From the NCBI GenBank assembly GCA_016192145.1, contig JACPUT010000009.1:186001-250000 (forward strand): DNA of 64,000 nt. The letters run 5' to 3'. Shown piece after piece: positions 2,215-17,222 of the stretch; position 1 is the first letter of the stretch; each line of letters begins with the position of its first letter. The DNA comes from Acidobacteriota bacterium (GTDB lineage Bacteria; Acidobacteriota; Holophagae; Holophagales; Holophagaceae). The translations under genes were made by a program, and so were the position numbers. The notes below the pieces were generated by a model. It saw only the letters and a program-made list of their open reading frames with translations. It was not told where the DNA came from and did not search any database.

Positions 2215-3666
2215 ATGGATTTCCTTCCCCCCCACGACAGCCCGGAGCTGGAGCGCTTCGAGCATCCCCTGGCCACCCGTTACGCCTCCAAGGGCATGGT
2301 GCGCCTCCTTTCGCCCCTCTACCGCCAGCGCGTGTGGCGCCGCCTCTGGATCGCCCTCGCGGAAAGCGAGATGGAGCTGGGCCTGCCCATCACCCCGGCC
2401 CAGGTGGCGGAGATGAAGGCCACGCAGGATGACGTGGATCTGGAGGACATCGCCCTGCACGAGGCGGCCCTGCGCCACGACGTGATGGCCGCCATCCACG
2501 CCTGGGGCGATCAGGCCCCCACGGCCCGCCCCATCGTGCACCTGGGCGCCACCAGCTGCTTCGTCACCGACAACGGCGACCTGCTCATCTGCCACGAGGC
2601 CCTGCGCCTCCTGCGCAGCCGCCTGCAGGACGTCATCGAGGCCCTCGCGAAGTTCGCGGACACGTGGAAGGATCAGCCCACGCTGGGCTTCACCCACTTC
2701 CAGTCCGCCCAGCCCACCACCGTGGGCAAGCGCGCCAGCCTCTGGCTGCAGGACCTCCTCCTGGATCTGGAGGACCTGGACCACCTCATCCACACCACCC
2801 CCGTGCGCGGCGTGAAGGGCACCACGGGCACCCAGGCCTCCTTCCTCGAGCTCTTCAATGGCGACGGCGCCAAGGTGGAAGCCCTCGAAGCCAAGTTCTG
2901 CGACAAGGTGGGCGTCGCCGCCATCCCCGTGAGCGGCCAGACGGCCACGCGCAAGCTGGAGGATCGCATCGGCCAGGTGCTCTGCGGCATCGCGGCCTCC
3001 GCCTCCAAGTTCGCCTGCGATCTGCGCCTCCTGCAGCACCTCAAGGAAGTGGAGGAGCCCTTCGAAAAGAACCAGATCGGATCTTCCGCCATGCCCTACA
3101 AGCGCAACCCCATGCGCTCGGAGCGCATCAACAGCCTCGCCCGCTTCGTGCTGGGGCTCATGCCCTCCACCTACCAGACGAGCGCCAACCAGTGGATGGA
3201 GCGGACGCTGGATGACAGCGCCCACCGCCGCCTCTCCATGAGCCAGGGCCTGCTGGCGGTCGACGCCATCCTCGTGCTCTTCCGCAACGTGGCCAACGGG
3301 CTCGTGGTGTACCCCAAGATGATCGAGGCGCGCCTCGGCCAGGAGCTGCCCTTCATGGCCGCCGAAGTGCTGCTCATGGAGGCGGTGAAGCGGGGCGGCG
3401 ACCGCCAGGATCTCCACGAGAAGTTCCGCGTGGCGGCCCTGGAAGCGGGGAAGGCCATCAAGCAGGAGGGCCTCGCCAATCCGCTGCTGAAGCTCCTCGC
3501 CGCCGATCCCGCTTGGAAGATGACGGAAGCGGAGCTCGCCGCCATGCTCGACGCAAGCCGTTTCACGGGCCGCGCCGGGGCGCAGACGGAGGCCTTCCTG
3601 AAGGGCCCCGTGGCCCATGCGCTGAGGGATCACAAGCCCGCGGATGAAGCGGCCGTGCGGGTTTAA
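2215..3666 (+). CDS. purB: Adenylosuccinate lyase
   Basis: It catalyses two fumarate-releasing steps of purine synthesis: SAICAR to AICAR and adenylosuccinate to AMP. The 483-residue protein belongs to the fumarase/aspartase superfamily. The superfamily signature [10 protein letters not shown] is at residues 290-299, preceded by EKNQIG, and [12 protein letters not shown] near residue 108 contributes to the active site. Two ATGs compete (2209 and 2215). GGAG at 2203-2206 is 2 nt from the first and 8 nt from the second, so 2215 was chosen; the longer form adds MR. It is divergent from glyA across an inverted repeat. Confidence 0.95.
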
Positions 3667-3676
3667 GCGTGTTTTA

Positions 3677-3746
3677 AACAGGATGTACAGGATGAACATG
3701 ATGTCCTGTGCGGGCCTTTCATCCTGTCCATCCTGTACATCCTGTT
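3677..3746. repeat. Inverted repeat 2, 9-mer ACAGGATG words
   Basis: The 27-nt arms 3677-3703 and 3720-3746 pair with two mismatches around a 16-nt loop. Each arm is three 9-mers of the type WACAGGATG. It fills most of the gap between purB and the next gene. It gives a spurious HPVHPV reading when translated. Confidence 0.85.
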
Positions 3747-3764
3747 CCTAAGACTGAGGATTCC

Positions 3765-4577
3765 ATGCTCAAGCTCGCCGTGATCGGTGCCCAGACCCTG
3801 CTGGGTCGTGAACTCGTCCAGGTGCTGGAGGCCGCCGAGGCTTCCGTGCTGCCCCTTTCCACGGGCCCCCTCACGGTGGAGCAGGAGGAGAGCGACATCG
3901 TCGTCTTCGCCCCCACGCCTGCGCTGCTGGTGGGCATGGACGTCGCCATCCTGGCGGACACGCCCGATGAGCACCTGCTGGAGCACTTCCCCGGCCGCGT
4001 CCTCGACCTCCGCGCCGAGGGCTGCGAAGGCGAGGCCATGCCCTTCGGCGCCTGGCCCGAGGGCGTGAAGCGCCTGAAACTGCGCCCCGCCCTGGAACAG
4101 GTGCTGGGCCTCGTGCCCAAGCTGCTCTCCGGTGTGGGCGGCCTCAGCGGTACCTGGCTCCGCTCCGTGGCCTACCGCGGCGACACGGGCCTGGATGCCC
4201 TGCACGCCCAAACCAAGCAGATCCTGAAGGGCGAGGATCCCGATACGGAAGTGCTGGGCTACCGCGCCGCCTTCGAGGTGATCCCCCAGGTCCCCCGCGG
4301 CGCCCTCACGGAAGTGCGCGTCCCCGCCTTCCACGGCGACCTCCTCATCCTCCAGGTGCGCGCCGCCGCCGGGGCCAAGCTCGCCCAGACCGACGCCCCC
4401 GAGGGCGTGGTGTGGGCGGGAGAGCCCCCCAGCTCCCGCGACGTGGCCACCTCTCCGGAACTCCTCGCCTACCTGACCCTGGGCGAGGACCAGACCATGG
4501 CCACGCTCATCTTGGGCTTCGATCCCATTCTTTGGGGCGCCATGCGGCCGACGTTGGCCGTGCTGGGGTTGAAGTAA
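3765..4577 (+). CDS. Aspartate-semialdehyde-dehydrogenase-like protein lacking the catalytic Cys
   Basis: The protein has 270 residues. The N-terminus MLKLAVIGAQTLLGRELVQV is a Rossmann dinucleotide-binding start as in aspartate-semialdehyde dehydrogenase (Asd), and RVPAFHGD (about 183-190) resembles the Asd segment that carries the substrate-binding Arg and His. The only cysteine, in RAEGCEGEA near residue 86, is not in an N-C-T/S context, and the chain is about 60-70 residues shorter than true Asd. It therefore looks like a non-catalytic Asd/USG-1-type homologue. The ATG at 3765 is preceded by GAGGA; upstream in-frame codons come from inverted repeat 2. Confidence 0.75.
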   Translation: MLKLAVIGAQTLLGRELVQVLEAAEASVLPLSTGPLTVEQEESDIVVFAPTPALLVGMDVAILADTPDEHLLEHFPGRVLDLRAEGCEGEAMPFGAWPEGVKRLKLRPALEQVLGLVPKLLSGVGGLSGTWLRSVAYRGDTGLDALHAQTKQILKGEDPDTEVLGYRAAFEVIPQVPRGALTEVRVPAFHGDLLILQVRAAAGAKLAQTDAPEGVVWAGEPPSSRDVATSPELLAYLTLGEDQTMATLILGFDPILWGAMRPTLAVLGLK

Positions 4578-4688
4578 GTCCTTGGTCCTTAGTCCTTGGT
4601 CCTTGGCTGGGTTCGACCCACCATTGATGGGACCCAGGCCATTGCATAGGGCCTAAGGACTAAGGACTAAGGACGAAGGACCAAGGAC
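4578..4688. repeat. Inverted repeat 3, GTCCTTR heptamers with GCTGGGT core
   Basis: Four tandem heptamers GTCCTTR (4578-4605) are inversely repeated at 4660-4688 with about three mismatches over 29 nt. Directly inside the left arm lies GCTGGGTTCGACCCA, and ACCCAG (4632-4637) on the other side forms an inner stem. The same core follows the heptamer array of inverted repeat 4. The right arm ends 11 bp before the next start codon. Confidence 0.85.
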
Positions 4689-4699
4689 CCATACCCCCC

Positions 4700-5338
4700 A
4701 TGTCCAAAAAACTCGACCAAGCCCAGGACCGCGGCGACTTCTTCAAGTCGCTGGGGACCCTCTTCGGCGGGTTGGTGGCGGAGCAGCTGGAGAACGTCGT
4801 CACGAAGGTGAGCCCGAAGATGCTGCGGCCGCCGGGGGCGCTGGATGAGTTCGCCTTCCTCACGGCCTGCACCCGCTGCGAGAAGTGCATCGAGGCCTGC
4901 CCCCAGCAGGCCCTCGTGAAGGCGGGACCCTCCGCGGGCCTGGGCCTCAACGCGCCCTTCCTGGAGCCCCGCAGCATGCCCTGCTTCCTCTGCACGGAGC
5001 TGCCCTGCATCACGGCCTGCGAGGATGGGGCCCTCGTGTGGCCCACGCTCAGGCTCAAGGACGGCACGGAGCTCTCCGGCCCCGCGGCCGTGCGCGTGGG
5101 GCTCGCCGAAGTGAATCCCGACCTCTGCCTCACCTACACCCGGGGCGAGCGCGAGGCGGAGGCCTGCCAGGTGTGCGTGGACCGCTGCCCCTACCCGGGC
5201 GTCGCCATCCGCATGGCGGACGCGGCCGAGGGCCCCGCCCATCCCGAGGTGCTGGAGGAGCGCTGCACGGGCTGCGGGCTTTGCGTGTTCGGCTGCCCCA
5301 CGCCCCAGCCCGCCATCGTCGTCAAGGTCCGGGGGTGA
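4700..5338 (+). CDS. NapG/MauM-like polyferredoxin, four 4Fe-4S sites
   Basis: This 212-residue iron-sulfur protein has four cysteine sets: C57/60/63/67, C95/98/103/107, C143/156/159/163 and C189/192/195/199. The pattern resembles the NapG/MauM electron-transfer ferredoxins that pass electrons to periplasmic reductases or quinols. I see no clear Tat RR motif at the N-terminus (MSKKLDQAQDRGDFFKSLGT), so the compartment is uncertain. No nap or mau genes are nearby. The gene overlaps the next by GTGA, implying coupling. No good Shine-Dalgarno precedes the ATG; the AAGGACC word ending inverted repeat 3 is the nearest purine run. Confidence 0.82.
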   Translation: MSKKLDQAQDRGDFFKSLGTLFGGLVAEQLENVVTKVSPKMLRPPGALDEFAFLTACTRCEKCIEACPQQALVKAGPSAGLGLNAPFLEPRSMPCFLCTELPCITACEDGALVWPTLRLKDGTELSGPAAVRVGLAEVNPDLCLTYTRGEREAEACQVCVDRCPYPGVAIRMADAAEGPAHPEVLEERCTGCGLCVFGCPTPQPAIVVKVRG

Positions 5339-6138
5339 GGCCCACCACCTGGCTCGTGCCCTTGGTCGTGGTGGCGGCGGGCGCGGCCGGGGTGGCCCAC
5401 TGGGCCCGCCAGGCCAGGGCCGCCCAGCGGGCCCAGGCCTGGGGCTTCACCCGGAGCGTGGCCCAACGGCTCCAAACGGACGAGGCCGCCCGGCAGATGT
5501 ACCTCCAGAATCCGGAACTCCAGGCGCGCACCCCTTCGGCGGAGGCCTTCCTGGTGGAGGTGCGGGCCCATCGGGCGGCCTTCTCGGCCCTCCCCGCCCG
5601 GGAGCCCGCCGACGGCTACCTCTGCCTGCCCCGCCTCACCGCCTTCACGGCGCAGCTCAAGGGGGCCGACGGCACTTGGCTGGAGCTGGAGGTGCAGGGC
5701 CCCAGCCTCCTGGATCAGGTCCGGGGCGAGGGGATCCATCGCCTCCACTTCGCCCCGGGGCGGGAGGCCCTCCACCAGCCCAGCCCCGAGGAGGCGAGCG
5801 CGTCCAGCGCGGCGCTTTGGGAGCGCTACCAGGCGGTGCTCGCGGAGCTGGAATCCCCCGGGGGGGCCAAGGCCCTCTGGGAACGGGAACCGGGACTCCA
5901 TGGGAGCTATGCCCGCCCCGAGGAGTTGGAGGCCTGGGCGCGGGCCCACCGGGCGGCCTGGGCCGGGGTGCCCCGGGGCGGGTGGGCCCTGGCCCTGAAG
6001 GTGTCCATCCAGCGGGAGCGTGGCGCGGCGGGGGAGGCCTTCAACGTGGACTACCCATTGGAAGCCGGAAGGCTGCGGATGACCTGGCGGGGAGGGAAGC
6101 TCACCTTCCTGGGCTTCGTGCCGCCCGGGGCGAACTGA
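5335..6138 (+). CDS. Membrane-anchored hypothetical protein coupled to the ferredoxin
   Basis: The protein has 267 residues from a GTG start at 5335 that overlaps the ferredoxin stop (GTGA). The N-terminus MRPTTWLVPLVVVAAGAAGVAH is one hydrophobic segment, a signal anchor, followed by an Arg/Ala/Gln-rich helix. The rest is soluble and appears to hold two related halves: 'ALWERYQAVLAELE' and 'MYLQNPELQARTPSAEAFLVEVRAHRAAFSALP' echo 'ALWEREPGLHGSYARPEELEAWARAHRAAWAGVP'. Family unrecognised. The overlap suggests it works with the ferredoxin at the inner membrane. Confidence 0.7.
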   Translation: MRPTTWLVPLVVVAAGAAGVAHWARQARAAQRAQAWGFTRSVAQRLQTDEAARQMYLQNPELQARTPSAEAFLVEVRAHRAAFSALPAREPADGYLCLPRLTAFTAQLKGADGTWLELEVQGPSLLDQVRGEGIHRLHFAPGREALHQPSPEEASASSAALWERYQAVLAELESPGGAKALWEREPGLHGSYARPEELEAWARAHRAAWAGVPRGGWALALKVSIQRERGAAGEAFNVDYPLEAGRLRMTWRGGKLTFLGFVPPGAN

Positions 6139-10161: not shown

Positions 10162-12102
10162 TCAGAAGCCGTAGCGCAGCTTGGCGAGGAACTCCCGGCC
10201 GGTGCCGGGCAGGGGGCCATGGCCGCCATCGTAGGGCTGAACGAAGGGGACCCGGCGGTCCAGGGCGTCCTGGAGGCCCAGGCTGGCGGTGAACCCCCGG
10301 GCGGTGAAGGCGAGGTTCAGGCCCACCAGGAGATCCGGGGAGAGGCGGGTGAGGCGGTTGGCCCCGGCGCCCGCGTCCCAGGCATAGGCGTAGCGGTCCC
10401 CGAGCCCCACGAGGGTTCCCCCCAGGGTCCAGACGCTGCCCAGGTGCAGGCCCCCCGCCAGGGTGGCCTTGCGGGGCGTGAACCCGAGGAAGTGGGAATC
10501 ATGGCCGGGCGCGGACCAGAGGGCCACCTCGTTACGGGCCTGGTGGTAGCTGTAGGCGGCGTTGAGGAAGCCCCAGGTGCGCCTCAGCTTCCACTCCAGC
10601 TCGAAGCCCCGGGTGCCCGTTTCCGATTGGTTCAGGTACCCGCTGACGGGGCCCTGCACCGTATAGACGAGGGGCTTGCGGATTTTGGTGTCGAAGAGGT
10701 TCAGGGTGAGGAGGCTGGCCCCCAGCTGGACGCCGGCCTCCACTTCGGCGGTGCGGGTCTTCTCGGGCTCGATGGGTCGCGAGGGGTCCAGGGTCTGATT
10801 GATGTTCAGGATGGCGGGGCTGCGGAAGGCGTGGGCGTAGAGCAGCTTCAGGTGCCAAGGGCCTGAGGCCTTGGTGAGGGCGATTCGGGGCACGAAGGCG
10901 GAACCCGCGGCGCTGTGGTGCTCCCAGCGGGCCCCCAGGGTGAGGTTCACGGGGCCCTGGACCTGGAACTGCCCGTAGAGGGCCTTGCTCGTGTAGGACA
11001 CGGAGCTGGCATTGCCGGGGAAGTAGCTGGGGGTGGGGGGCAGTGCGTTGGAGGCGTCCCTCTGGACTTCGGCGCCGGCGGCGAGGCTCATCTCCGGCGA
11101 GAGATCCCAGGCCAGCCCCAGGCCGCCCCGGAGGCGGGTGGCCTGGTAGTGGTGGGCCCCGGCATCCACGTCGTCCACCCACCAGGGTTTCTGGTAGGTC
11201 CAAGCCAGGAAGGGCGTCAGCACCAGATCCCGGCGGACCTTCCAGGTGTAGCGCAGATCGAGGTTGGTGCCATCGAAGCGGACTCCCGTGGGGCCCGCCG
11301 TGGCGAGGCGGAGGTTGTCCCGCTGCTCCAGCCAGTACCGATCCAGGATGAGCCGCCCGGAGAACCCGCCCACGCTCACGCCGAGGTTGGCGAAGAGGGG
11401 GCGCATGGCGCTCTGGTCCTGGAGGGTGTAGGTCGTGCCGATGGGATCCGTATAGGTGCCGTCGCTGCGCGTGCCCGTGCCAGCGAAGGCGCCGATGGTC
11501 ACCTTCACGTCGGGCCCGCCCCAGGCCCCCACGCCCTCGAAGGTGCTGCGGTAGGTCGCGTCCTTCCCCCGGCCTAAGGTGACCCCGGCGCCCCCACCCT
11601 CGAGATCATCGGCGCCCAGGGTGGTGATCTGGATGACGGCCACTTCCGCGCAACCGCCATAGATGCTGGATCCCGGCCCCCGGATGATCTCGACCCGGCG
11701 GATCTGATCCACGGGGAAGTGGTTTCCGAGGGGGATGGTGCCATAGAGGGTCTCGTTCATCTCCACGCCATCCCAAAGCACGAGGATCTTGCCCTCGTAG
11801 CCCCAGAGCCCGCGCATGGCGGGGCCCGTGACGCCCTGCACGTCGTAGCCGATTTCGAAACCCGGCACGAGGCGCAGGATATCGATGAGGTCCCGGGCGC
11901 CGGTGGCCTGGATCTCCTCCCGGGTGATCAGGGTGACCACGCCGGGGCTCTCCCGGGCCGTCTCGGATTTGCGGCTGACCACCGTGACCCGGGTCTGCAG
12001 GAGATCCTGGAGGCTCGGCAACGCGCCGTCCTGCTCCTGGGCCTGAAGGGGCGCCAGGAGCAGGGCGAAAAGCAGGGCCTCCGACGGGCGCCTAGAACCC
12101 AT
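10162..12102 (-). CDS. TonB-dependent outer-membrane receptor, tandem copy 2
   Basis: This 646-residue receptor has a signal peptide (MGSRRPSEALLFALLLAPLQAQ), a plug domain at about 40-160 (ARESPGVVTLITREEIQATG, LVPGFEIGYDVQGV, VEIIRGPGSSIYGG) and a 22-strand barrel predicted to the C-terminus, which ends with the outer-membrane signature aromatic FLAKLRYGF. It imports an unidentified siderophore-, vitamin- or metal-complex-type substrate. It overlaps the upstream paralogue by 11 bp and shares motifs such as GLWGYEGKI and GHGPLPGTGRE, so the two arose by tandem duplication. The plug carries GGCAEVAV where its twin has GGYAEVAV. Confidence 0.92.
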   Translation of the reverse strand: MGSRRPSEALLFALLLAPLQAQEQDGALPSLQDLLQTRVTVVSRKSETARESPGVVTLITREEIQATGARDLIDILRLVPGFEIGYDVQGVTGPAMRGLWGYEGKILVLWDGVEMNETLYGTIPLGNHFPVDQIRRVEIIRGPGSSIYGGCAEVAVIQITTLGADDLEGGGAGVTLGRGKDATYRSTFEGVGAWGGPDVKVTIGAFAGTGTRSDGTYTDPIGTTYTLQDQSAMRPLFANLGVSVGGFSGRLILDRYWLEQRDNLRLATAGPTGVRFDGTNLDLRYTWKVRRDLVLTPFLAWTYQKPWWVDDVDAGAHHYQATRLRGGLGLAWDLSPEMSLAAGAEVQRDASNALPPTPSYFPGNASSVSYTSKALYGQFQVQGPVNLTLGARWEHHSAAGSAFVPRIALTKASGPWHLKLLYAHAFRSPAILNINQTLDPSRPIEPEKTRTAEVEAGVQLGASLLTLNLFDTKIRKPLVYTVQGPVSGYLNQSETGTRGFELEWKLRRTWGFLNAAYSYHQARNEVALWSAPGHDSHFLGFTPRKATLAGGLHLGSVWTLGGTLVGLGDRYAYAWDAGAGANRLTRLSPDLLVGLNLAFTARGFTASLGLQDALDRRVPFVQPYDGGHGPLPGTGREFLAKLRYGF

Positions 12103-14026
12103 ACCGGAGCTTGAAGGTCAGCTCCCGGCCGGTGCCGGGCAGGGGGCCATGGCCGCCCGTGTAGGGCTGCACGAAGGGCCGGCGCCGGTCGCCGAGGTCG
12201 AAGACCCCCAGATCGGCCCTCAGGGCACCCTTCGTCCAGGCGAGGTTCACGTTCACGAGGGTGTCCGCGGAGAGCTTCTGGAGGCTGTAGGCGCCCGTCC
12301 CCGGCTCGACGGTCATGCCGTAGCGATCGCTGAACCAGAGGAGGCTGGGGCCCAGGGTGAAGCCGCCCGGCAGCTTGAGGCCCGCCGAGAGGGCGAGCTT
12401 GCTGCTGGACATCCCGAGCAGTTCGCTATCGTGGCCGGGCACTTCCCAATCGGGCACCTGCACATCCACGGCCTTGAACCAGGTGGCGTTGGCGTTCAGG
12501 AAGCCCCAGGCCTTGCGGAGCTTCCATTCGAGTTCGAGGCCGCGGGTACCGACTTTCTCCCGATTGAAATAGCCGGAATCCGGGCCGACGAGGGTGTAGA
12601 CGAGGGGCTTCTTGATTTCCGTGTCGAAGAGGTTGGCGGTGAAGAGGCTGGAGCCCGCCTGCACGCCCGCTTCCACTTCGAAGGTGCGCGTCTTCTCCGG
12701 TTCGATGGGCGCCGAGCCGGGGATGGGCTGGTTGATGTTCATGATGGAGGGCGTCCGGAAGGCATTGGCGTAAAGCGCCTTGAAGTGCCACTTCCCGAAG
12801 ACCTTCGTGAGGGCGAAGCGGGGCACGAAGGAGGATCCGACCTCGCTGTGGTTCTCGTAGCGGGCGCCCACGGTGATGTTGACGGGGCCCTGGTAGGCCA
12901 GCTGGGCGTAGGCGGCGGTGCTGGTGTACTTCGCGGTGGTGGCGCCGGCGGGGAAGGTGCTGGAGTCCGGGATCGATTCGCTCTTGTCGGTTTGCGTCTC
13001 CAGGCCCGCGGCGAGGTTGAAGGCGGCGTTGATGTCCCAGCCCAGCCCCACACCGGCCCGCATGCGGGTGGTGGCGAATTTGAAGATGCCCGCATCGACG
13101 TCATCCACCCACCAGGGTTTCTGATCCCGCCACAGCACGAAGGGGGTGAGGGTCAGGTCCTTGGAGAGGGTCCAGACGTACTTGGCCTCGACGTTCGTGC
13201 TCCCGAAGCGGATCCCGGTGGCGGCGGGCGTGGCGTCCCCCAGGTTGTCCCGCTGGTCCATGGCGTACTGATCCACGATGGCCCTCAGGCTGAAGCCGCC
13301 GGCGCTGAGGCCGAGGTTGACGAAGAGGGGACGGACCTTGGAGTTGTCCTTCAGGTTGTAGGTGAGTCCCGTGGGATCGGTGTAGTCGCCATCGGAGCGC
13401 TTGCCATCCCCCGCGAAGGCGCCGAAGGAGAGCTTCAGGGCATCCCCGGCCACGCCGCCCACGAGGTGGCCGCCCTGCCGGTAGGTGGCGTCCTTGCCCT
13501 TGCCGTAGAGGAGGCCCCCGCCCACGTTCCCCGGGATGTCCTCGGGGCCGAGGCTGGTGATCTGGATGACGGCCACCTCGGCGTAGCCGCCATAGGTGGC
13601 GGAGCCGGGGCCGCGGATGATCTCCACGCGTTTGATCTGATCCACGGGGAAGTGGTTCCCCAGCTGGGTCGTTCCATAGAGGGTCTCGTTCATCTCCACG
13701 CCATCCCAGAGCAGGAGGATCTTGCCCTCGTAGCCCCAGAGGCCGCGCAGGCTCGGGCCGGTGACGCCCTGCACGTCGTAGTTCACGTCGAAGCCGGGCA
13801 CCATGCGCAGCACGTCGATGAGGTCGCGGGCGCCGCTGGCCTGGATCTCATCCCGCGTGATGAGGGAGACCACGCCGGGGCTCTCGCGGGTGGTGAGGGC
13901 CTTCTTGCTGGCCACGGTGATGGGCGTGTTCAAGAGGGCGAGCAGTTCATCCTCTTCCTTGCTGGGGGCCTGCTGGGCGACCAGCGTCAGTGAGAGGACA
14001 GGAAGGAGCAGCGCGAAGCGAGTCAC
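12092..14026 (-). CDS. TonB-dependent outer-membrane receptor, tandem copy 1
   Basis: This 644-residue receptor uses a GTG start at 14026 with GAGGAGG upstream. The signal peptide is MTRFALLLPVLSLTLVAQQ. The plug domain at about 45-165 includes TRESPGVVSLITRDEIQASG, MVPGFDVNYDVQGV and VEIIRGPGSATYGGYAEVAV, followed by a beta-barrel ending LTFKLRYGF. No STN signalling domain is present, so it is a transporter rather than a transducer. It is the first gene of a receptor pair. No B12, iron or other riboswitch signature was found in the 72-bp gap to the divergent neighbour. Substrate unknown. Confidence 0.92.
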   Translation of the reverse strand: MTRFALLLPVLSLTLVAQQAPSKEEDELLALLNTPITVASKKALTTRESPGVVSLITRDEIQASGARDLIDVLRMVPGFDVNYDVQGVTGPSLRGLWGYEGKILLLWDGVEMNETLYGTTQLGNHFPVDQIKRVEIIRGPGSATYGGYAEVAVIQITSLGPEDIPGNVGGGLLYGKGKDATYRQGGHLVGGVAGDALKLSFGAFAGDGKRSDGDYTDPTGLTYNLKDNSKVRPLFVNLGLSAGGFSLRAIVDQYAMDQRDNLGDATPAATGIRFGSTNVEAKYVWTLSKDLTLTPFVLWRDQKPWWVDDVDAGIFKFATTRMRAGVGLGWDINAAFNLAAGLETQTDKSESIPDSSTFPAGATTAKYTSTAAYAQLAYQGPVNITVGARYENHSEVGSSFVPRFALTKVFGKWHFKALYANAFRTPSIMNINQPIPGSAPIEPEKTRTFEVEAGVQAGSSLFTANLFDTEIKKPLVYTLVGPDSGYFNREKVGTRGLELEWKLRKAWGFLNANATWFKAVDVQVPDWEVPGHDSELLGMSSSKLALSAGLKLPGGFTLGPSLLWFSDRYGMTVEPGTGAYSLQKLSADTLVNVNLAWTKGALRADLGVFDLGDRRRPFVQPYTGGHGPLPGTGRELTFKLRYGF

Positions 14027-14098: not shown

Positions 14099-15022
14099 AT
14101 GCCCTTCACGCTTCACCGCCACCTGCTCTCGGAGCAGCGGGCCTTCCTTGGCCGGGATCGCCGTGCCTGGGGGGACCACCTGCTGCGGGCCAGGGCATGG
14201 CTTGGAGAGGGGTTGGCCTCGGCTCCAAAGGACAGGCCCTGCCTGATCCTGGGCGCGGGGTGGGGGCTGGAGGTCCCCTGGTCGCTGGCGCCCCCGGAGA
14301 CCTGGGGTTGGGATGCCGATCCCCTCAGCCGCGTGGGCACCCTGCTGCGCCACCGGCGCTGGGCTCCTTGGGTGTATGAGGATTTCACGGGCCGCCTCCG
14401 GGAGCTTTCGCGCGCGGCTCGGCGCTGCGCCCGGGATGAGCGGGTGGGTCGGCGCCGCGACCCGGTGCTCGCGGCCCGCCGTTTGGCGGGGATCCTCCCC
14501 TCCTTCTCGCCCACGGGAGAGCCGCTGCGGGCCTGGGTGGAAGCTCACCGCCCGGGGGCCATCGTGGTGGCCAACGTGCTGGGGCAGCTCGGTCCTGTGG
14601 CGCAGGCCCTCATCCAGCGGGCCTTCCGCCCCATCAATCCCTTCGAGTTGCCGGATGAGGCCTCGGAGGTGCTGGCGGAGGCCCTGGATCTATGGACCGC
14701 CGCGGCGGTGCGCGCCGTGTTGAAGGTGCTTTCGGAAAGCGGGGCGGAAGTCTGCCTGCTCCATGATCGGGGCGTGGCCTGGGGCGACGCCGCCCCGCGG
14801 CCCCTGGGCCCCTGGCGGGATCCCTGGGTGGCGCAGCTGCCGCTGGGGCACTGGGAGGTCAGCGATGCCCTGGGGGACGTGGAAGTGGGGGCCTGCTTCG
14901 CGGACAGCCATGAGGTGCGGGCCCGGGAGCGCTGGTGGTGGCCCGTGGGCCCCGGTCAGCTGCATCTGGTGGAGGCCTGGCGGCTGGGGGCGTTTCCAAG
15001 CCACCCCGGGGAGCCGCGTTGA
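14099..15022 (+). CDS. Unrecognised protein with a methyltransferase-like N-terminal motif
   Basis: The protein has 307 residues, rich in Trp and Arg. After a basic helix, residues 46-75 read CLILGAGWGLEVPWSLAPP then TWGWDADPL, resembling motif I and the acidic end of beta-2 of a Rossmann SAM-dependent methyltransferase. Later strands (GAIVVANVLGQLGP near 150, AEVCLLHDRGVAW near 221) fit such a fold. No definite catalytic motif or family match is seen. The start has a weak GGA. It is divergent from the receptor pair and converges on the RiPP operon with a 7-bp gap. The methyltransferase idea is tentative. Confidence 0.6.
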   Translation: MPFTLHRHLLSEQRAFLGRDRRAWGDHLLRARAWLGEGLASAPKDRPCLILGAGWGLEVPWSLAPPETWGWDADPLSRVGTLLRHRRWAPWVYEDFTGRLRELSRAARRCARDERVGRRRDPVLAARRLAGILPSFSPTGEPLRAWVEAHRPGAIVVANVLGQLGPVAQALIQRAFRPINPFELPDEASEVLAEALDLWTAAAVRAVLKVLSESGAEVCLLHDRGVAWGDAAPRPLGPWRDPWVAQLPLGHWEVSDALGDVEVGACFADSHEVRARERWWWPVGPGQLHLVEAWRLGAFPSHPGEPR

Positions 15023-15029
15023 GGCCCGA

Positions 15030-15803
15030 TCAGGCCGATCTGAATCCCGCCAGGGCCCCCTTGGCGTAGAGATCCCGGCCGAGGCGGAGGGCCTCACCCC
15101 GATCCACGCCCAGGGCTTCCGCGGCGGGTCCGAGGGGATCTCCGGCCATCCAGCGGGCCAGGAGGGCCGAGGCCGTGGGGCTCAGCTCCAGGCTGCGGAA
15201 GGAGCCTTCCCGATCCCGCCAGGCGAGCAGGTGGGAGGGGCCATCGGGGGGGATGGGATCCTCCACCCCGGCTTCCTGCACGTGGCAGGGGTAGGTGAGG
15301 TTGCGCAGGGTGACCTCGGCCACCAGGGTGGCATCGGGGGCGGGCTCGGGAGTCAACCCCTCGGCCGGGGGGCCGTCCGGGTGGCGGAGCAGCTCCAGTT
15401 CCAGATGCTCCCAATGGGCCAGGGGCAGGAGGTAGGGCCAGCGTTCGGCCCCCCAACCGGAATCCACCAACCAGGCGAGGAAGGCGGGCGCCACGTCGCG
15501 GTAGTAGGGGCTCTGCACGGTGCGGCTGTCCAGGAAGGCGGCGAGGCAGCCCTTCCAGGCGCCCTCGGCTTCCAGCAGGGCCTGGGTGATGGGGAAGCAG
15601 TCCTCCACGGGGTCCGTGAGGGCGAACTGCACGAGATCCCGATAGACGGCGAGGCGCGTCGCGCGGGCGGCGAGGGCGCCCTGGTCCGCGGTCTCCAAGC
15701 CCCGGGCCTGGCCCCAGCCCTGGGGATCGGCGAGGAAGGGGGCGGCGTCGGGGGCCACCATGAGGTCGAACATGCTGCGCTGGAGGTTGTCGAGGCGGCT
15801 CAT
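15030..15803 (-). CDS. HvfC-type DUF2063 RiPP maturation partner
   Basis: This 257-residue protein has the DUF2063 pattern: LDNLQRSMFDLMVAP at the N-terminus and RLAVYRDLVQFALTDPVEDCFPITQALL at about 48-75, followed by a mostly helical and beta C-terminal domain. In known clusters DUF2063 proteins pair with DUF692/MNIO enzymes and help present the precursor peptide. Its ATG overlaps the maturase stop (ATGA), so the two are translationally coupled. It is the last gene of the three-gene operon. The name rests on family and context; the partner's exact role is established only for relatives. Confidence 0.87.
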   Translation of the reverse strand: MSRLDNLQRSMFDLMVAPDAAPFLADPQGWGQARGLETADQGALAARATRLAVYRDLVQFALTDPVEDCFPITQALLEAEGAWKGCLAAFLDSRTVQSPYYRDVAPAFLAWLVDSGWGAERWPYLLPLAHWEHLELELLRHPDGPPAEGLTPEPAPDATLVAEVTLRNLTYPCHVQEAGVEDPIPPDGPSHLLAWRDREGSFRSLELSPTASALLARWMAGDPLGPAAEALGVDRGEALRLGRDLYAKGALAGFRSA

Positions 15804-16657
15804 CCGGCCACCTCCGAATCCGCGAGGGCCGCGTCGTAGGCCACCTGCAGGCGGGCCCGCTCGGCCAGCAGCTCCTCCAGCTCCGGGATGGCGTTGTCGC
15901 GCTCGAGGAGGACGGGAACGGCCTTGCCCGTGGCCTCCTGGATGCGCGGCAGCACCCACTGCATGAGCTCCACCACGGGGTCGATGACGGGGGCGCCGTG
16001 GGTGTCGATGATGAGGCGATCCTCCTCGAACCAGTCATGCCCGGCGATGTGCATTTGCGCCACGCGGTGCAGGGGCATCCCGGTGAGCCAGGCCTTGGCG
16101 TCGAAGCCGTGATTCACGCTGTTCACGTAGAGGTTGTTGATGTCCAGGAGCCAACCCACGTCGGCGCCCTCGAGGACCTCGGTCAGGAAGGCGCGCTCGT
16201 CCATTTCGGGCTCGCCGAGCTCTGCGTACCAGCTGATGTTCTCCAGGAGGAAGGGCAGCTCCAGGCGGTCCTGCAATTCCCTCGACCGCGCCACGCAGCG
16301 GGCCACGCCCTCCTTCGTGAAGGGAACGGGGAGGAGCTCGTGGGTGGTGGCGCCGCCGAGGCTCGTCCAGCACAGGTGCTCGCTGTGCCAGGGGGCTTCG
16401 AGCTCGCGCAGGAAGGCCTTGAGATCCCGGATCTGCTCGGGATCCCAGTCATCGGGGCCGCCGATGGAGAGGCTGAGCCCGTGGGTGAGCACGGGATCGC
16501 GCTGGAGGATCTCCCGGGTGAGCCGGGCCTTCCGGCCGCCCTGGCCGATCACGTTCTCCGGGGCGAACTCCCAGAAGGGCACGGGGCTGGCGCTCAGGGC
16601 CGCCACGGCTTCCAGGTGGGGACGCCGCAGGCCGACGCCGACTCCGGTGAAACTCAC
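15800..16657 (-). CDS. DUF692/MNIO RiPP maturase (HvfB-like)
   Basis: It belongs to the multinuclear non-heme iron oxidases, which oxidise cysteines of a precursor peptide (in relatives, to oxazolone/thioamide or thiooxazole groups). The TIM-barrel protein of about 285 residues shows the conserved metal-ligand segments: TGVGVGLRRPH at the start, EFAPENVIG, HGLSLSIG, WHSEHLCW, LLENISWY, WLLDINNLYVN, MHIAGH and DTHGAPV. Two GTG codons compete (16663 and 16657). GAGG sits 5 nt before the second and overlaps the first, so 16657 was chosen. A strong hairpin separates it from the upstream precursor gene. Confidence 0.9.
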   Translation of the reverse strand: MSFTGVGVGLRRPHLEAVAALSASPVPFWEFAPENVIGQGGRKARLTREILQRDPVLTHGLSLSIGGPDDWDPEQIRDLKAFLRELEAPWHSEHLCWTSLGGATTHELLPVPFTKEGVARCVARSRELQDRLELPFLLENISWYAELGEPEMDERAFLTEVLEGADVGWLLDINNLYVNSVNHGFDAKAWLTGMPLHRVAQMHIAGHDWFEEDRLIIDTHGAPVIDPVVELMQWVLPRIQEATGKAVPVLLERDNAIPELEELLAERARLQVAYDAALADSEVAG

Positions 16658-16677
16658 GGGCACCTCATGAAAGGGAT

Positions 16678-16701
16678 GGGGCCTTGCGCGCGCAAGGCCC
16701 C
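16678..16701 (-). promoter_or_regulatory. Perfect palindrome between precursor and maturase genes
   Basis: A 24-nt perfect palindrome (arm GGGGCCTTGCGC) lies 19 bp after the precursor stop and about 20 bp before the maturase start. In RNA it forms a 10-bp stem with a 4-nt CGCG loop. Only a short T-run follows on the minus strand, so it looks like a leaky terminator or attenuator, or an mRNA 3'-end stabiliser, that would keep precursor levels above enzyme levels. Confidence 0.7.
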
Positions 16702-16720
16702 AGGGACTCAGAGGGCAACC

Positions 16721-17113
16721 TCAGCCCTTCTTGGAGGAGCCGCAGGAGCCGGCGCCGCAGCCGCCGTCCTTGCCCTTCTTGCCGTCCTTCTTGTCGCCGC
16801 TGCACTTGTGATCCTTACCCTTCTTGTCCGCTTTCTTCTCATCCTTCTTCTCGTCGGAGAGCAGGAGGGCACCCTTCTTCTCCTCCTTCTTCTTCTCCTC
16901 CTTCTTGTCGGCCTTCTTCTTGTCGCCGCCGCACTTGCCGTCCTTGTCCTTGCCGCACTTGTGGTCCTTGCCCTTTTCGCCGCCGCAGCCAGCTTCGGTC
17001 AGGCTCTTGTCCGCCCCGGATTTGACGGGGGAGGCGGAGAGGGGGGCGGCCGCCGTGGCGGCGAAGGCGGTGGCGGCGAAGAGACCGGCCAAGGTGTTGA
17101 TCTTACGGTTCAT
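16721..17113 (-). CDS. Cysteine-rich secreted RiPP precursor (HvfA/bufferin-like)
   Basis: The 130-residue precursor starts with a Sec-type leader (MNRKINTLAGLFAATAFAAT, likely cleaved after APLSAS) and is then low-complexity Lys/Gly/Asp. Six cysteines lie in two clusters: C43, C53 and C61 (AGCGGEK, DHKCGK, DGKCGG) and C104, C119 and C124 (DHKCSG, GGCGAG, GSCGSS). They are separated by about 40 residues of Lys/Glu/Asp with a single ALLL break. The KCG context resembles HvfA/bufferin cores modified by MNIO enzymes to bind copper. AAGGAG sits 5 nt before the ATG, the strongest ribosome site of the operon. Copper as ligand is inferred from relatives. Confidence 0.85.
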   Translation of the reverse strand: MNRKINTLAGLFAATAFAATAAAPLSASPVKSGADKSLTEAGCGGEKGKDHKCGKDKDGKCGGDKKKADKKEEKKKEEKKGALLLSDEKKDEKKADKKGKDHKCSGDKKDGKKGKDGGCGAGSCGSSKKG

Positions 17114-17222
17114 GCTGACTCCTTTGGGCTTGCGCCACGTGGGCCATCGGGCCCGGGTGAGGGGGAGCCCCTTGGGGGGCGTGCTACTGGGGTGACGAGA
17201 ACCAGGGAAATGTGACGAAGTT

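Follow-up and report, generated by a model that had tools for sequence, protein, structure and literature searches.

HvfABC (oxazolin) of Haemophilus influenzae, fontiphorin (FonABC) and gonophorin are captophorins of the Lys-Cys/EGKCG kind (PMC13097082, PMC13419390). The products of HvfA, FonA and NgoA carry 5-thiooxazole and the class has been linked to copper detoxification (PMC13097082); a captophorin is defined by 5-thiooxazole on cysteine (−4 Da, ~305 nm) together with copper binding or a role in copper stress. The FonBC pair fully modifies DGKCG, tolerates Ala, Arg or Thr before the cysteine and requires Gly or Ala after it (PMC13097082). A pocket site of the enzyme, position 250 of FonB, is Phe in Lys-Cys enzymes and Asp in Cys-Lys enzymes. 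The main text of two published MNIO surveys is centred on Pseudomonadota, and that of the landscape paper does not name Acidobacteriota (PMC12452194). Here we describe an operon from the Holophagaceae, found in a window that is the whole 64,000-nucleotide stretch of DNA analysed, which on its sequence is a lineage-specific version of this known type of copper-handling peptide system.

Gene organisation and distribution

Three consecutive genes, all on the minus strand and each with the codon-position GC signature of a real gene, encode in this order a precursor (A), an MNIO (B) and a DUF2063 protein (C). The start codon of C and the stop codon of B share an ATGA overlap (15800..15803); the single-strand gene order and the coupling of B and C described in the first-pass annotation were both in place. 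Gene A (16721..17113) encodes a putative secreted Lys/Cys-rich precursor of 130 aa with six cysteines, recognised from its open reading frame, its cysteine contexts and its homologues, which lie upstream of the MNIO gene throughout Holophagaceae. It is preceded by the ribosome-binding site AAAGGAG (17119..17125, minus strand) and begins with a Sec signal-like N-terminus of ~28 aa (17030..17113), a candidate leader in which AGLFAA is the local form of an ATLFAA h-region motif. One third of the mature part is lysine.

The product of B (15800..16663, 287 aa) matched PF05114 (DUF692) with 290 bits against a cut-off of 25. The best PDB match of its AF2 model was 3BWW (E 7.8e-22), a protein with 72% identity to HvfB (PMC13419390), followed by TglH and MbnB. 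Across 20 relatives neither the motifs that hold the MNIO metal ligands nor the catalytic Asp (D256 in B, equivalent to FonB D249) vary, and together with the profile match and the predicted TIM-barrel fold they mark B as an MNIO and putative cysteine-modifying enzyme. The product of C (15030..15803) has 257 aa when read from its ATG; a longer open reading frame with a GTG start reaches 15959, and the ATG start suffices. It matched PF09836 with 42.5 bits (cut-off 27.2) and PF22106 (NGO1945_C) with 40.8 bits (cut-off 27), so that the DUF692 and DUF2063 assignments made before any profile search are both borne out above the Pfam cut-offs. By sequence, C found no match in the PDB; its AF2 model (pLDDT 95) matched best the DUF2063-RRE protein NGO1945 (3DEE, E 2.2e-6) and second TglI (8HCI_A). 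A DUF2063 domain followed by an RRE-type domain, within a length close to the expected ~250-260 aa, is the layout of a PME type 1 partner.

As had been remarked from the sequence, no DoxX-like partner adjoins the operon. In tblastn searches with three DoxX queries none was found in the window or at any Holophagaceae locus, and one marginal match lies on a different contig of the source genome; linked DoxX genes are frequent, not universal, in Buf/Hvf gene clusters. The divergent neighbour of the operon is an APC-type permease gene (from 17339, plus strand), and an unassigned convergent open reading frame occupies 14099-15022 (plus strand). Two TonB-dependent receptor paralogues, 60.5% identical, stand in tandem on the minus strand (10162-12102 and 12092-14026) with an 11-base overlap; in 38 named relatives the regions flanking the MNIO operon contained no match to this pair. 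The named relatives of the source genome are Holophagaceae, with many Geothrix among them; Geothrix fermentans DSM 14018 is one carrier of the operon.

MNIO genes were found in 46 of 77 Holophagaceae genomes and in 5 of 11 genera. The precursor accompanies the MNIO in 45 of these 46 genomes and occurs in none of the other 31 (both genes 45, MNIO only 1, precursor only 0, neither 31), a co-occurrence whose Fisher p of 1e-20 is nominal, because the genomes are related. The source genome, of 3.8 Mb, has a single MNIO. At two loci, L078 (G007:C1, Geothrix fermentans, 2787-5833) and L080 (G070:C1, 2172-5049), a precursor with an LFAA signal and SCG sites is followed by a radical SAM/SPASM protein, an MNIO and a DUF2063 protein, and in L080 an ECF sigma factor lies upstream of this cluster. 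The gene order suggests that the radical SAM enzyme and the MNIO may share one precursor.

Signal peptide, upstream element and candidate regulators

Across 44 precursors with differing cores, positions 9-12 and 14, five of the six positions of the ATLFAA motif, are at least 93% conserved. Similarity among these precursors is 0.58 in the signal and 0.44 in the mature part, whereas two control proteins showed the opposite trend (0.50 versus 0.83 and 0.77 versus 0.82, respectively). Between precursors with DGSCG cores and those with RRC cores, likeness amounts to 55% for the signal but to 20% for the mature part. HvfA deprived of its signal peptide is modified poorly by HvfBC (PMC13419390). The conservation suggests that the signal peptide of A may also be its leader and falls short of proof; we rejected it as proof because one control signal peptide equals that of the precursors in absolute conservation.

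A candidate promoter/operator, GTCACATTTCCCTGGTTCTCGTCACCCCA, lies upstream of A at 17188..17216 (minus strand) and conforms to the pattern GTCACA-N15-[GT]CACCnnA conserved upstream of precursors. Of 43 regions upstream of Holophagaceae precursor genes, 40 contain the loose form of this pattern at a distance of 88-150 bases from the start codon. It also occurs at a further Holophagaceae locus (L143), counted apart from these 43, and was not found upstream of precursors in other lineages. The GTCACA box was present in 35 of the 43 regions, compared with 0 of 60 for two control genes. The site at 17188..17216 is the single one of the GTCACA-N15-CACC type in the 64 kb of the window, and among 13 genomes searched whole the element stands at the operon in 10. 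Elsewhere in these 13 genomes, matches were no commoner than those of a reversed control pattern, which does not support a multi-gene regulon. This putative operon-specific upstream element of Holophagaceae is new here.

In their boxes and spacing the candidate elements resemble an ECF promoter, such as that of ECF41 (TGTCACA-n16-CGTC; PMC3426412). ECF41 itself was rejected as the regulator, since the source genome has only generic low-scoring matches and no full-length ECF41-like protein, and the ECF41-like proteins present in a few Geothrix are distributed independently of it. In many relatives, ECF sigma and zf-HC2 anti-sigma-like genes follow the operon, mostly with a YceI gene in between; in a Pseudomonas aeruginosa operon a sigma factor and zf-HC2 pair precedes A. 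YceI, ECF sigma and zf-HC2 genes are absent from the window. The nearest homologues of the relatives' ECF sigma and zf-HC2 proteins in the source genome are 51% and 48% identical, respectively, and unlinked, and similar paralogues also occur in genomes without the operon.

A GC-rich hairpin (GCGGC-loop-GCCGC) abuts the precursor RBS in many relatives, with a weak version at ~17117-17180 (minus strand) in the window. The precursor 5' UTR had no match in Rfam, and a conserved RNA structure was set aside because the alignment is too poor for a consensus fold.

Proposed product and its metal

Taking the gene identities, predicted folds, conserved metal-ligand positions, co-occurrence, signal motif and upstream element together, we consider it probable that A is modified by B and C to a 5-thiooxazole peptide, is exported by the Sec pathway and binds metal, most likely copper, outside. 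The ribosomally made precursor A would be bound in the cytoplasm by the RRE domain of C and by the MNIO, probably via its Sec signal peptide. Using an O2-dependent multi-iron site, B would then perform a four-electron oxidation at each Xaa-Cys-Gly site, converting five of the six cysteines to 5-thiooxazole with a loss of 4 Da each. Sec export and removal of the signal would follow, and in the periplasm or beyond the cell the Lys-rich thiooxazole peptide would bind soft metal ions, of which surplus copper is the most likely. The GTCACA-N15-CACC element probably serves as the promoter of the operon. Cultured Geothrix relatives are described as anaerobes, a habit that sits oddly with an O2-dependent enzyme. 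The source genome contains three haem-copper oxidase matches and none to cytochrome bd, which makes exposure to O2 plausible. Almost all genomes of the family have haem-copper oxidases, and the apparent conflict is thereby softened.

A Lys-rich peptide of this kind could have another role. The same cysteine chemistry may serve a different metal, or oxidant or sulfur stress (e.g., zinc, gold, mercury or redox protection), a reading encouraged by the ECF sigma, zinc-finger anti-sigma-like and YceI genes that flank the operon in relatives and by the lack of any copper gene adjacent to the operon in the window (Pfam). The characterized 5-thiooxazole peptides of MNIO-PME1 systems are, however, linked to copper (PMC13097082), and growth in medium amended with copper has been described for an enrichment in which a relative of Geothrix fermentans and two other members dominate (PMC10946571), which is only circumstantial. 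We regard a role other than copper as rather unlikely, and copper as the most likely ligand of the product.

The six cysteines of A stand in the contexts AGCGG (C43), DHKCG (C53), DGKCG (C61), DHKCS (C104), DGGCG (C119) and AGSCG (C124). Five of them should be good sites, because the FonBC rule asks for Gly or Ala after the cysteine and C104 precedes Ser. Across Holophagaceae the core cysteine is followed by Gly at 227 of 249 sites (91%) and preceded by Ser, Lys, Gly or other residues. In a relative of the same genus (G054), whose contig breaks off near the precursor gene, the precursor has KGCG, ASCS and DASCGKGSCG sites. At three loci of genus g9 (L015, L016 and L081), the same signal peptide is followed by Arg-rich repeats of the RRCAGVPRCG type in place of a Lys-rich core. 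The literature search on the SCG motif gave no relevant result.

On the enzyme side, B keeps Arg-Arg at positions 13-14 (FonB R15/R16) and carries Asn257 at the equivalent of FonB F250, thus departing from the Arg-Arg-Phe of Lys-Cys enzymes as well as from the Asp of Bufferin 2 enzymes. Arg-Arg is found in 43 of 50 Holophagaceae MNIOs, including that of the window, and at the counterpart of FonB 250, 38 of the 50 have Asn and the others His, Ser, Thr or Gln, with Phe and Asp in none. The other Acidobacteriota sampled have mostly Cys-Lys precursors and Asp at this position, in keeping with the published pairing, and this agreement provides an internal control on how the site was mapped. A strict link between Ser-Cys cores and Asn is weakened by the P. 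aeruginosa operon, which combines EGSCG with Phe. The altered pocket, together with a divergent core that has Ser, Gly or His-Lys before the cysteine, may indicate that B installs a modification other than 5-thiooxazole, and the MNIO superfamily as a whole makes many modifications (PMC12452194). Yet every MNIO-PME1 product examined in PMC13097082 has 5-thiooxazole, and FonB F250A and F250D still yield it, which makes a different product distinctly unlikely and leaves 5-thiooxazole as our preferred assignment. A might instead be a secreted metal-binding or cationic protein that stays unmodified, with B and C acting on a substrate elsewhere. This would fit its low-complexity Lys-rich sequence and is highly improbable, given that the genome has a single MNIO, that A-like genes strictly accompany the MNIO gene and sit next to it, and that the core Cys-Gly motifs are conserved while the remaining sequence diverges.

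Phylogenetic placement and comparison with known systems

In a midpoint-rooted maximum-likelihood tree of 91 MNIOs with few references, the Holophagaceae enzymes form one clade (100/99). A split supported at 100/100 separates Holophagaceae, Myxococcota, 3BWW and two plasmid enzymes (L145 from P. aeruginosa and L148 from Klebsiella pneumoniae) from the Buf1/Buf2-type plasmid enzymes and all other Acidobacteriota sampled; it is firmer than the branching order within it, because the tree is effectively unrooted and long branches lead to the three references from proteobacteria. By its gene content and tree placement the operon is HvfABC-like and not a bufferin operon in the strict sense. The initial label of HvfABC/bufferin type therefore holds in its first half, with B on the HvfB side of the tree, and fails in its second. 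In the profile searches A matched no Pfam or NCBIfam model, and B (265.8 bits for HvfB, cut-off 360; 254 bits for BufB) and C (98.6 bits for HvfC, cut-off 142) scored below the NCBIfam cut-offs. The identical three-gene order and the closeness of the BufB and HvfB scores speak for a bufferin proper of the Buf1/DUF2282 or Buf2/Cys-Lys type; this assignment is largely refuted, and we rejected it, since A has neither a DUF2282 match in Pfam nor any Cys-Lys site, B carries Asn257 rather than Asp, and the enzyme branches apart from Buf1/Buf2.

Starting from the HvfABC-like assignment, it is tempting to speculate that Holophagaceae possess an MNIO-PME1 subclass of their own, with a looser Xaa-Cys-Gly selectivity tied to an Asn/His pocket and a promoter read by an ECF/zinc-finger module (A-B-C-YceI-ECF-zf-HC2), of which the window would hold a stripped three-gene form that keeps the element and relies on an unlinked regulator. 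We offer this as a tentative proposal, one with somewhat less than an even chance of being right. The bounded set of HvfB-like Holophagaceae enzymes, with natural changes at the selectivity site and natural core swaps behind one signal peptide (Lys-Cys, Ser-Cys and Arg-rich RRC...PRCG), is a ready test of cysteine choice and of the leader role. A direct handle on the inducing stress comes from the upstream element together with the ECF and zf-HC2 genes that relatives carry.

Among known systems, bufferins 1 (Buf1, DUF2282) and 2 (Buf2, Cys-Lys) resemble the window in the order of their genes and in having a Sec signal, an MNIO and a DUF2063 protein (PMC12452194), and differ in the DUF2282 or Cys-Lys character of the precursor and in an enzyme on the opposite side of the tree. 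The MNIO operons of Myxococcota (L121-L142, L144) form the neighbouring clade (97/79), with Asn, Gln or Ser at the selectivity site and SCG cores, but their precursors are short, acidic, of EGSCG type and not Lys-rich, unlike A. In these metagenome-assembled genomes the precursors end in EASCGEGSCG repeats and many have lipobox-like N-termini (TAAC/TAGC); the Myxococcota product may therefore be membrane-anchored. The Klebsiella enzyme, which groups with B in the tree, goes with a precursor containing SGKCA, SGKCG and DGKCG sites. Its locus (K. pneumoniae plasmid p1_090351, 211-3631) encodes in a row an MBL-fold hydrolase, the SGKCASGKCG peptide, an MNIO whose selectivity site is Asn, a partner protein and DoxX.

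The operon of P. aeruginosa plasmid pPALO11 (L145) comprises a sigma factor, zf-HC2, an EGSCG/AKCG peptide, MNIO, DUF2063 and DoxX. Like the window it combines a mixed SCG/KCG peptide with Lys-rich linkers, an MNIO and a DUF2063 protein, and its ECF and zf-HC2 module is also seen in many Holophagaceae relatives; unlike the window it has Phe at the selectivity site and linked DoxX and ECF genes. From HvfABC, FonABC and gonophorin the window differs in its cores (DHKCG, DGKCG, GCG, SCG and one KCS, with DHKCG, DGKCG and DHKCS occurring once each and the EGKCG repeat of HvfA/oxazolin absent), in the Asn at the FonB 250 position, in scores below the NCBIfam HvfB and HvfC cut-offs, and in having no DoxX. 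With the same three systems it has in common the A-B-C gene order, a precursor with a Sec signal and several Xaa-Cys-Gly sites, an MNIO with Arg-Arg and the catalytic Asp, a DUF2063-RRE partner and a place on the same side of the tree.
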